Positions 17,090 through 25,856 of a stretch of DNA of 34,996 nucleotides are shown piece after piece. The notes beneath the pieces were generated by a model that was not told where the DNA came from, did not search any database, and worked only from the letters and a program-made list of their open reading frames with translations. Made by a program: the position numbers and the translations under genes. Positions within the stretch are counted from its first letter, which is position 1, and every line of letters begins with the position of its first letter. Origin of the DNA: a virus. The stretch covers positions 1-34,996 of IMG/VR virus record IMGVR_UViG_3300046559_000118, one strand, 5' to 3'.

Positions 17090-17280
17090 CAGCGCTTCCG
17101 CAACACCGGCTCGCCGGCATCGAAACAGACACGCGAGAGCGTCATCACACGGGCCCAGTCATCCAGAACCTCGCGAGCTACCCAATCAGGCGTAATAAAT
17201 CCTGATCCAATGGTAGATTTCGGCCGATTGCGGGCCGCAAGCCGCTGGCGACGACGGGTGAGCGTGCGCGGTGAGCCCAT
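17089..17280 (-). CDS. first gene of the leftward operon, 63 residues, basic
   Basis: The product has a very basic N-terminal tail (SPRTLTRRRQRLAARNRPKS) and a helical second half (TPDWVAREVLDDWARVMTLS, then RVCFDAGEPVLRKR). There is no clear ribosome site before ATG 17280. It lies about 120 bases downstream of the terminator at 17399-17432 and would be the first gene read if polymerase passes it. A DNA- or RNA-binding role, for example in late control, is possible from charge and place, but not shown. Confidence 0.5.
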   Translation of the reverse strand: MGSPRTLTRRRQRLAARNRPKSTIGSGFITPDWVAREVLDDWARVMTLSRVCFDAGEPVLRKR

Positions 17281-17361
17281 AAGGAAAGTTGGCGGCTGGC
17301 GTCATGTGACGCGGGCGGTCGTACGCATCCGCTTTCTCAGCCGGCCGAGCGTATTCTACGC

Positions 17362-17390
17362 TTGACAGCGCGGTTTGTGAAGCGCAGAAT
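17362..17390 (+). promoter_or_regulatory. rightward sigma70-type promoter candidate
   Basis: A perfect -35 hexamer TTGACA (17362-17367) is followed by 17 bases and a -10 CAGAAT (17385-17390; four of six match). Transcription would start near 17397 and run toward the rightward genes, with a leader of over 440 bases before ATG 17840. It faces the leftward promoter candidate at 17483-17511. Confidence 0.4.
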
Positions 17391-17398
17391 CGGCGGGT

Positions 17399-17432
17399 AA
17401 GAAAAAGCCCCGAGGCGGTGAACCTCGAGGCT
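17399..17432 (-). terminator. intrinsic terminator in the leader of the leftward operon
   Basis: On the minus strand AGCCTCGAGG (17432-17423) pairs over ten bases (one G-U) with CCTCGGGGCT (17415-17406) around a seven-base loop, followed by TTTTTC. This is a strong leftward terminator. It lies upstream of all late genes and about 45 bases after the leftward promoter candidate, so late expression should need read-through. Confidence 0.75.
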
Positions 17433-17433
17433 G

Positions 17434-17839
17434 GAGTGCTCGGCCTGCTGACACAGGACAAGCGGGGACAAAACAGGCCCCCATCCTACAACACGCAGCA
17501 CCACTCAGCAACACAAATCACCACGGTTGGCGGCTTCGCGCCGAAAAGCCGCGGAACACAGGAACGACGGCCGAGACGAGGAGCAACCTGATGGGGCCTG
17601 CGGGCCTCCCTCGCCGGTCGCTGGCGTCGTGCGGGGCGTGCGCGGGTGGCACGCAGGCCGCGGGGTGTGAGAGGACTCCTACCCATCCTCCATGCCTGAC
17701 AACATCGGACGCTGGGGCTGTGTCGGTTGTGCAGCACGCGCCACTTCGGGCTGACGCGGTACGACAACACCAGGATCAGGCCCCCAGTGTTTACGGGGCA
17801 CATCAGGGTCTGGGGTAGCCCTATCGTTCAGGAGCCTGT
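17434..17839. other. 406-base non-coding control region between the divergent operons
   Basis: No convincing gene was found: the open frames on both strands have Arg/Pro/Cys-rich, random-like products. The region holds the leftward promoter candidate (17483-17511). It also holds a 7-pair stem GCGGCTT/AAGCCGC at 17530-17552, just upstream of that promoter's -35, and a GGCC-TGCG-GGCC palindrome near 17595-17606. These could be binding sites for regulators, which is inference. Confidence 0.6.
17483..17511 (-). promoter_or_regulatory. leftward promoter candidate for the late operon
   Basis: Read on the minus strand: TTGCTG (17511-17506), 17 bases, TAGGAT (17488-17483). The -10 is the same hexamer as in the strong rightward promoter at 18048. 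The -35 is weak (three of six), as is common where an activator or antiterminator helps. The start point would be near 17476, just before the terminator. Confidence 0.4.
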
Positions 17840-23326: not shown

Positions 23327-23552
23327 GCGCGCTCGCTATGAAGTTCAACTACGGCATCCGTTATGGGGCTGGGTGTCTGCCGGAACATGGCCCGCTCGTA
23401 CGAAGGCCGAGGGACTGAAATCGTTGGACGACTGCTCGATGGGTGTTCGACGCACGGGTTCAATTCACGCTCACCGCTTGGTAAAACTGGAGGCTGTTGT
23501 AATCGCCTATCGCAAGGCCGCGCGTCGGGCGAGCCGTCAGGAGGGGCGATGA
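23319..23552 (+). CDS. 77-residue hypothetical protein
   Basis: The product reads RYEVQLRHPLWGWVSAGTWP, a strand pair, then TKAEGLKSLDDCSM, and a basic helical end (IAYRKAARRASRQEGR). It looks like a small alpha-beta protein. Overlaps with both neighbours (eight and four bases) support it. Confidence 0.55.
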   Translation: MSERARYEVQLRHPLWGWVSAGTWPARTKAEGLKSLDDCSMGVRRTGSIHAHRLVKLEAVVIAYRKAARRASRQEGR

Positions 23553-23698
23553 GCGACCAGCCGAGAGGAGAAGGCGTGAACGGCAAGAAGTCTCCCTGTC
23601 GCGTTCACAAGTGGGGCACGTGGACATTCGGTCGGTGGAACGGCGGAATTGGGCATCGTCGCGTCTGTCGGCGGTGCGGAGCGGAGCAAACGAGATGA
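23549..23698 (+). CDS. 49-residue zinc-finger protein
   Basis: The start is set at ATG 23549, which has a GGAGGGG ribosome site and an ATGA overlap. The product has CRVHKWGTWTFGRW and then HRRVCRRCGAEQT, a Cys/His-Cys-x-x-Cys zinc site with a Trp-rich turn. It closely resembles in layout the 41-residue protein at 24786. Such tiny fingers are frequent in phage early regions and often act on host enzymes; the role here is unknown. Confidence 0.65.
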   Translation: MSDQPRGEGVNGKKSPCRVHKWGTWTFGRWNGGIGHRRVCRRCGAEQTR

Positions 23699-24754: not shown

Positions 24755-24789
24755 CGCGGCCTGACCCGCGTGGAGGGACGACGAAATGA
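24751..24789 (+). CDS. 12-codon mini-cistron linking two genes
   Basis: A 12-codon frame (MTRPDPRGGTTK) with ATGA overlaps at both ends. It contains the GGAGGG ribosome site of the following gene. It may only hand ribosomes on to the 24786 gene. A stable product is doubtful. Confidence 0.3.
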   Translation: MTRPDPRGGTTK

Positions 24790-24911
24790 ACTGGCGCTGC
24801 TGGTTTCGGCACGACTGGGGACCGTGGGAAGTTCGCGTGGATAGGCTCGGTGCGGAATGGCGCTCGTGCCGACGTTGCGGGAAATCTCACTGGCAGTGGG
24901 CGTGGAATTGA
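24786..24911 (+). CDS. 41-residue zinc-finger protein
   Basis: A strong GGAGGG ribosome site about nine bases ahead of ATG 24786. The product is CWFRHDWGPWEVRVDR, then WRSCRRCGKSHWQWAWN: one Cys-x4-His-type pair and a Cys-x-x-Cys pair set in Trp-rich sequence. It shares the layout of the 23549 protein, so the two may have arisen by duplication or act on similar targets. It is the last gene before the RNA island. Function unknown. Confidence 0.65.
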   Translation: MNWRCWFRHDWGPWEVRVDRLGAEWRSCRRCGKSHWQWAWN

Positions 24912-24952
24912 GTAGCGCCCTCGCTCGACGTGGACGCGGCAACGCCGATTGC

Positions 24953-25026
24953 ACGGCTGTAGCTCAGACGCAGAGCGGTCGGCCTTTACGCCGACAGGTC
25001 GCAGCATTTACAAGCTGCCAGCCGTC
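24953..25026 (+). tRNA. tRNA-like cloverleaf with non-standard loops
   Basis: All four stems pair without mismatch: acceptor ACGGCTG/CAGCCGT (7), D stem GCTC/GAGC (4), anticodon stem GTCGG/CCGAC (5) and T stem GCAGC/GCTGC (5). TA stands at positions 8-9 and a typical AGGTC variable loop is present. The loops are odd: the D loop AGACGCA lacks the GG pair. The anticodon loop CCTTTACG has eight bases, or six if its end C and G pair. The T loop ATTTACAA lacks TTC. No CCA is encoded. It may be a decayed tRNA or a tRNA mimic. No amino acid can be assigned. Confidence 0.55.
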
Positions 25027-25033
25027 AGGCACA

Positions 25034-25086
25034 GCGGCGAGTCTCGAAGGCCAAGAGACTGCCGCGTCCATGTGGAGCGAGACTCG
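25034..25086 (+). ncRNA. pair of mutually exclusive hairpins, structured RNA candidate
   Basis: GCGGC-G-AGTCTC (25034-25045) pairs with GAGACT-GCCGC (25055-25065), eleven pairs with one bulge. The same left arm, as CGAGTCTCG (25038-25046), is also a perfect nine-base complement of CGAGACTCG (25078-25086). Only one of the two can form at a time, as in attenuators and switches. The element lies untranslated just after the tRNA-like sequence. Confidence 0.45.
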
Positions 25087-25235
25087 ACGCAGGCGCGGCG
25101 GCGCGTGATGGGTGGGGCCGAATAGACGAATCAGGCCCTAGCGTGTTGTAAACCACGCGCGTACGAGCCACGCCATCGACGCGCGCCGCGTCTGCGTGGG
25201 GGAAGGGAGCGAGCGATGACGAAAGGGACCAGCCG
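25087..25235 (+). other. untranslated, GC-rich stretch with further stems and a 7-codon frame
   Basis: No gene of usual size is seen. Stems GCGTG/CACGC (25141-25158, eight-base loop) and GACGCG/CGCGTC (25178-25192) are present. At 25216-25239 a seven-codon frame (MTKGTSR) ends in an ATGA overlap with the start of the 25236 gene and may feed ribosomes to it. Confidence 0.45.
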
Positions 25236-25856
25236 ATGAGCGACAGAGAATGGGAAGATTCAGCGACTCCAGCCGAAATGCATGAGCAGGCGCAGTATGG
25301 CGGTCGTCCGGAAGATAATCACCCACCACAAGCCACTCCCGTTCAGGGCCGCATTCTCGAATGGACATGCCGTGAGTGCGGCGTCCTCGTCCAGCGCGAT
25401 GAGAGCGGGGTGACGACGGCCGCTGCGCTGTCGCAGGACGCGCTCGACGCCTGCCAGATCCTGCGCGGCCTGTTCTCCGGCGGCATCAACGGCGTGCCGG
25501 ACGACGTGAAGGTCGTCGCGGAGGAAGCGGCGCGATACGTGGGGCTGGAGCGGGAGTCGGCGCGGCAACAGATTGGACAGAACGATGGGCTACGGCGCGA
25601 AGTGAAATTGCAACTCACCGAGCGGTTCAAGGCCGAGACCGATCTCGCCGCCGCCCGGCAGGAGTTGGACGACTATAAATCCGCTACGCAGCACGGTATC
25701 GGACTATCTGACTACGCGGCACTGAACGCGCGGCTCACCCGGCTGCGGGCGTGGCTGGAGCAGGAGATCGCGCGGCTACAGATACGCGGCACTGAATGGG
25801 ATGGCGGCTACAATGAGGCGTGCGAACGCATACTTGCGAGGCTTGGTGAGGTCTAA
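25236..25856 (+). CDS. 206-residue hypothetical protein with coiled coil and Cys pair
   Basis: The N-terminal 60 residues are polar, with a CRECG pair (TCRECGVLVQRDESG). A helical region follows (SQDALDACQILRGLFSGGIN), then long heptads (RREVKLQLTERFKAETDLAA; LNARLTRLRAWLEQEIARLQ), ending GYNEACERILARLGEV. Parts such as YNEACERIL resemble the ends of other phage early proteins. The end is overlapped by the HNH gene, which may have changed or cut its original C-terminus. Function unknown. Confidence 0.6.
   Translation: MSDREWEDSATPAEMHEQAQYGGRPEDNHPPQATPVQGRILEWTCRECGVLVQRDESGVTTAAALSQDALDACQILRGLFSGGINGVPDDVKVVAEEAARYVGLERESARQQIGQNDGLRREVKLQLTERFKAETDLAAARQELDDYKSATQHGIGLSDYAALNARLTRLRAWLEQEIARLQIRGTEWDGGYNEACERILARLGEV

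Follow-up and report, generated by a model that had tools for sequence, protein, structure and literature searches.

The window, meaning the whole 34,996-nucleotide stretch of viral DNA that was analyzed, contains an intergenic gap of 324 bases (24912-25235) that is nearly filled by predicted structure. It is flanked on the same strand by a short frame with CxxC pairs and by a longer frame for which no family was found (Table 1), and no promoter or terminator signal was seen at the structured element. The upstream frame and another at 23363-23698 have similar Trp-rich, CxxC-containing ends (MNWRCWF...CRRCGK and CRVHKWGTW...CRRCGA) and, judged by eye, are possibly related. By its protein matches the phage itself groups with P22-like podoviruses in the broad sense: its terminase is 45-49% identical to those of Vibrio, Salmonella, and Pseudomonas phages, and a portal and a NinB-like protein were matched as well.

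Table 1. Features of the structured intergenic element and its flanking reading frames (window coordinates; all on the plus strand)
Feature	Coordinates	Strand	Remarks
Upstream 41-aa ORF with CxxC pairs	24786..24911	+	Stop at 24909-24911; without clear family
Domain 1 closing stem, 5' arm	24920..24941	+	22 nt; one G-G mismatch, one G-U
P2, 5' side (CGCCG, TGC)	24943..24952	+	Predicted outward extension of the acceptor stem, pairing with 25029-25039
tRNA-Asn-derived cloverleaf	24953..25025	+	21 Watson-Crick pairs; D, anticodon, and T loops altered; without CCA
Altered T loop ATTTACAA	25006..25013	+	Candidate loop-loop partner of 25146-25153
P2, 3' side (GCA, CGGCG)	25029..25039	+	Predicted fold
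Hairpin P3, loop GAAGGCCAA	25040..25060	+	Predicted fold
Domain 1 closing stem, 3' arm	25060..25081	+	Partner of 24920-24941
Domain 2, second multibranched fold	25083..25201	+	Closing arms 25083-25099 and 25185-25201, like the domain 1 arms
Domain 2 hairpin loop TTGTAAAC	25146..25153	+	Complementary to the T loop over 7 bases
Downstream 206-aa ORF	25236..25856	+	No family found; element stops just before the start region

At this locus the initial annotation described a four-stem cloverleaf free of mismatches but with loops that break tRNA rules, and this description is borne out. All 21 pairs are Watson-Crick, in an acceptor stem ACGGCTG/CAGCCGT (24953-24959/25019-25025), a D stem GCTC/GAGC, an anticodon stem GTCGG/CCGAC, and a T stem GCAGC/GCTGC; the TA at positions 8-9 and the variable region AGGTC are present, as was claimed. 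Also as claimed, the D loop (AGACGCA) has no GG, the anticodon loop has 8 bases (or 6, if the stem is drawn as GTCGGC/GCCGAC), and the T loop, ATTTACAA, has no TTC; it is 8 bases long rather than 7. The weakest part of the predicted cloverleaf is the D stem, with a pair probability of 0.46. When both strands of the window were scanned with a 7/4/5/5-bp cloverleaf descriptor, 24953-25025 was the sole match. The same descriptor matched once in 60 shuffled strands (~0.03 per window), so that the geometry by itself is only moderately unlikely by chance.

The likeness of the cloverleaf to tRNA, on the other hand, is beyond chance, and the relation to tRNA that had been asserted is upheld both by a covariance model and by blastn. 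The covariance-model check, which the initial annotation had proposed, had a divided outcome: in a local scan the Rfam tRNA model RF00005 scored 32.0 bits, above its gathering score of 29 (E 5.2e-5), whereas an Rfam scan of the whole window, run with fast filters, gave no match and so missed the cloverleaf. ARAGORN called 0 tRNA genes in the whole window.

Judged by its sequence, the cloverleaf is a descendant of a tRNA-Asn gene. Over the half made up of the D arm, anticodon stem, and variable region, its identity to tRNA-Asn genes of phages is 84-88%, and blastn against 50,697 phage records returned tRNA-Asn matches with E down to 3e-5. Among the matches listed, all those with E<0.01 map to 24958-25001, that is, to the D and anticodon arms, and all the annotated ones are tRNA-Asn. 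Short matches were obtained from plasmids, the best two, in Pseudomonas records, lying over the tRNA-like part. A covariance model of domain 1 (R1; the domain is defined below) gave six matches in 398 genomes of one phylum. Its top two were tRNA-Asn(GTT) genes and the remaining three that were fetched were tRNA-Arg (two) and tRNA-Lys (one); all five are ordinary tRNAs, aligned to the cloverleaf part only.

The features by which a tRNA decodes have been lost from this descendant. In tRNA alignments G18 is replaced by C and the D loop has no G18-G19, the anticodon loop carries one extra base when aligned with tRNA-Asn and does not contain GTT, TTC is absent from the T loop, and no CCA is encoded 3' of the cloverleaf (CAGCCGT-C-AGG). 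With its loops so altered, the cloverleaf seems no longer able to work as an ordinary tRNA. Its T and acceptor arms have diverged from extant tRNA-Asn, yet 21 of 21 pairs are intact. Stems were thus kept while loops changed, as had been pointed out; the selection for shape read into this pattern is plausible.

The frame of the initial annotation is too narrow, for it missed both the tRNA-Asn ancestry and a larger element. It took 24953-25026 as the extent of the feature, but these are not its boundaries: in the predicted fold the ends of the cloverleaf run on into further helices, and the cloverleaf appears to be one module of a structured element of ~290 nt, from 24920 to about 25205 on the plus strand. 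Domain 1 (24920-25081) consists of the cloverleaf and a hairpin, P3, within a 22-nt inverted repeat whose arms are 91% complementary. The AAGGCC of P3 is complementary to GGCCTT in the anticodon arm. Because the acceptor stem is continuous with the outer helices there is no free CCA end, and the free-standing RNA of 74-77 nt that had been proposed finds no support.

Domain 1 folds with a z-score of -6.3, and domains 1 and 2 together with one of -7.4, in a sequence that is GC-rich, a composition that favors stems. Both strands of the element fold well, the plus strand (-175.4) being more stable than the minus strand (-162.3), and, apart from one G-G, every imperfect pair in the predicted fold is a G-U when read on the plus strand. 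In a fold scan of the whole window, on both strands, the element was among the strongest regions, second to a stretch at ~17.3-17.5 kb. That stretch (17247-17546, minus strand), the strongest local fold of the window, lies around divergent gene clusters and has a terminator-like hairpin on the minus strand; the z-score of a longer stretch is only -2.1, and positions 17399-17468 match the anti-hemB model weakly (21.9 bits, gathering 49.5).

Domain 2 follows in tandem, and its closing stem is related to that of domain 1. The two stems align over 17+17 nt and have a G-G mismatch at the same position, and the locus as a whole has four related closing arms in alternating orientation. Of 16 pairs compared, 5 differ between the domains and all 5 still pair; 2 of these show two-sided changes and 3 show one-sided changes that gain or lose a plus-strand G-U. 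All the observed changes are transitions. In Monte Carlo trials with an equal number of changes, all pairs were kept in 4-5% of cases if only transitions were allowed and in ~0.04% with arbitrary changes, while a shuffle control reached the observed level in 121 of 500 cases; this covariation is that of two paralogous stems of one genome. Across 463 kb, the best plus-strand match of each domain's covariance model (R1 and R2), self-matches aside, was the other domain, with weak E-values of 0.28 and 0.17 that are rough, each model having been built from one sequence entered twice.

Complementarity between the domains is apparent in their loops. A run of 7 bases in the altered T loop, ATTTACAA, is complementary to the domain 2 loop, TTGTAAAC (P 0.0036 when bases were shuffled among seven hairpin loops), and the anticodon loop has a second match, of 5 bases, to the same domain 2 loop (joint shuffle P 0.0006). 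Because the match had been noticed before testing, both P values err on the optimistic side. The bare kissing duplex is AU-rich and weak, at a computed -3.4 kcal/mol. Complementarity to the domain 2 loop could explain why TTC was lost from the T loop.

The element is known from one genome only, in one assembly, and its description rests on computation. Searches of viral contigs with three neighboring or replication proteins and one more returned no relatives. A terminase search gave 50 related records, in which the element was not found by blastn, which returned only short, weak pieces, or by R1; most of these records are short, fragmentary contigs, so its absence from them is weak evidence. 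L007, the nearest relative by terminase (100% over 335 residues), is a contig of 4.3 kb in which the element was found by neither blastn nor R1. R1 and R2 gave no convincing outside match over the relatives, and seven of their strongly folded regions, read by eye, did not have the architecture of the element. Matches to the loop pattern in viral contigs and genomes were set aside as chance at the loci that were read or folded, except for an archaeal tRNA-Thr (L110) and a YrlA-like RNA (L107).

Five consecutive tRNA genes occur at G014:C1:41819-42248, in a record whose phage terminase is 62% identical to that of this phage; besides it, only one of the 50 terminase relatives has a tRNA above the cut-off. 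At L088:6900-7150, TGTGTCATG-type motifs are repeated, iteron-like, in both orientations within a strongly folding stretch. The YrlA-like permuted tRNA-like RNA lies at L107:5951-6071, on a viral contig of 104 kb that has four tRNA genes, and scored 29.5 bits against RF02553 in a 401-nt scan (gathering 69, E 1.7e-4).

Comparison with known RNAs helps to place the element. With phage and bacterial tRNA-Asn (RF00005) it shares the D arm, anticodon stem, variable region, and four-arm geometry; unlike them, it is without GTT, G18, TTC, and CCA, has an 8-base anticodon loop, and has its acceptor stem lengthened by helices. YrlA, a bacterial Y RNA (RF02553), likewise has a tRNA-like module mounted on a long stem of 5' and 3' parts, and retains D and T loops recognized by tRNA-modifying enzymes (PMC8394870). 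In the YrlA Rfam model, however, the arms are permuted (T arm, hairpin, D arm), whereas the element keeps the tRNA order, and RF02553 had no match in the window, up to E 10 in the local scan. GOLLD and ROOL are ornate phage-borne RNAs with elaborate folds, kissing loops, and an association with tRNA genes, GOLLD often exceeding 800 nt (PMC12286853). They are much larger than the element but have phage origin, an elaborate fold, candidate kissing loops, and a link to tRNA genes in common with it; kissing loops hold them in homo-oligomeric complexes, while the loop complementarity of the element is a computed one. Neither they nor other Rfam families matched in the whole-window or local scan, tRNA being the sole match.

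Phages have also been reported to carry tRNAs that have altered anticodon loops and escape tRNA nucleases; these tRNAs, mutated in the anticodon loop, are decoding ones and are proposed to take the place of host tRNAs (PMC10264068). Like the element they are phage encoded and tRNA derived and have a changed anticodon loop, but the element is without decoding features. Their existence, the retained tRNA shape, and the 8-base anticodon loop are what speak for the options raised by the initial annotation, a decoy aimed at an anticodon nuclease or at a host enzyme that acts on tRNA, or else a frameshift-type tRNA. We consider these highly unlikely. The anticodon loop that such a nuclease would read is among the altered parts and is unlike that of tRNA-Asn, the elbow bases and CCA are gone, and a longer helix encloses the acceptor end. 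Neither option has found positive support, the T loop matching the loop of the neighboring domain instead, and the neighbors scanned gave no informative defense match, only one to a homing endonuclease and methyltransferase. Simple decay of a phage tRNA-Asn gene, with drifted loops, stems intact by chance, and unrelated inverted repeats, would account for the ancestry, for changes limited to a few loop positions, and for the lost decoding function, but is improbable given the 21 intact pairs in a cloverleaf whose T and acceptor arms are unlike those of present-day tRNA-Asn, the 22-nt repeat that encloses it, and the match of its T loop to a neighboring loop.

The four related arms in alternating orientation and the good folding of both strands might also be expected of an element acting as DNA (an origin, a site of packaging or recombination, or a MITE-like inverted repeat) in which tRNA-derived sequence is present by coincidence. 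Such a reading has little probability, since the imperfect pairs are plus-strand G-U apart from the one G-G, a loop-loop match is unexpected in a DNA site, and no PF00589 integrase is present in the record; an attP reading was dropped for the last of these reasons. A structured leader or operon-internal control, in which the fold would influence, in cis, how the gene at 25236 is transcribed or translated and would never be released, deserves more credence, short of being likely. It suits an element that lies between same-strand genes, stops near the downstream start region, and shows no promoter or terminator of its own. There is, however, no sign of a switch, as the start is not obviously covered by the fold and no terminator-like hairpin is seen, and a two-domain fold of 290 nt is elaborate for such a role.

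Computation reveals tRNA-Asn ancestry, loss of decoding features, a stem enclosing the cloverleaf, and a tandem second domain with a related stem. The explanation that we prefer, and to which we assign an even chance, is that a captured tRNA-Asn gene has become a structural module within a larger phage RNA, ~290 nt long and of plus-strand sense. The element would be transcribed along with its operon, and its long closing stems may be RNase III-type processing stems or may protect the RNA. The cloverleaf would serve as a junction module, its altered T loop docking on the domain 2 loop through a 7-base kissing contact that would replace the lost elbow between D loop and T loop. The folded product would not be a tRNA but a stable noncoding RNA or RNA-protein scaffold, or else a structured leader of the 25236 gene; we slightly favor a noncoding RNA over a leader.

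More tentatively, the element may represent a new class of phage noncoding RNA that arose by tRNA exaptation, with two tandem domains and a tRNA-derived T loop docked on the second of them. Docking might also take place between molecules, because the anticodon loop has a second 5-base match to the same domain 2 loop. If real, this would be a case in which a phage recruited a tRNA as a building block of a structured RNA, a loop-loop contact with another domain taking the place of the tRNA elbow, and would offer a concrete, testable route to tRNA mimics and to the ornate RNAs of phages.
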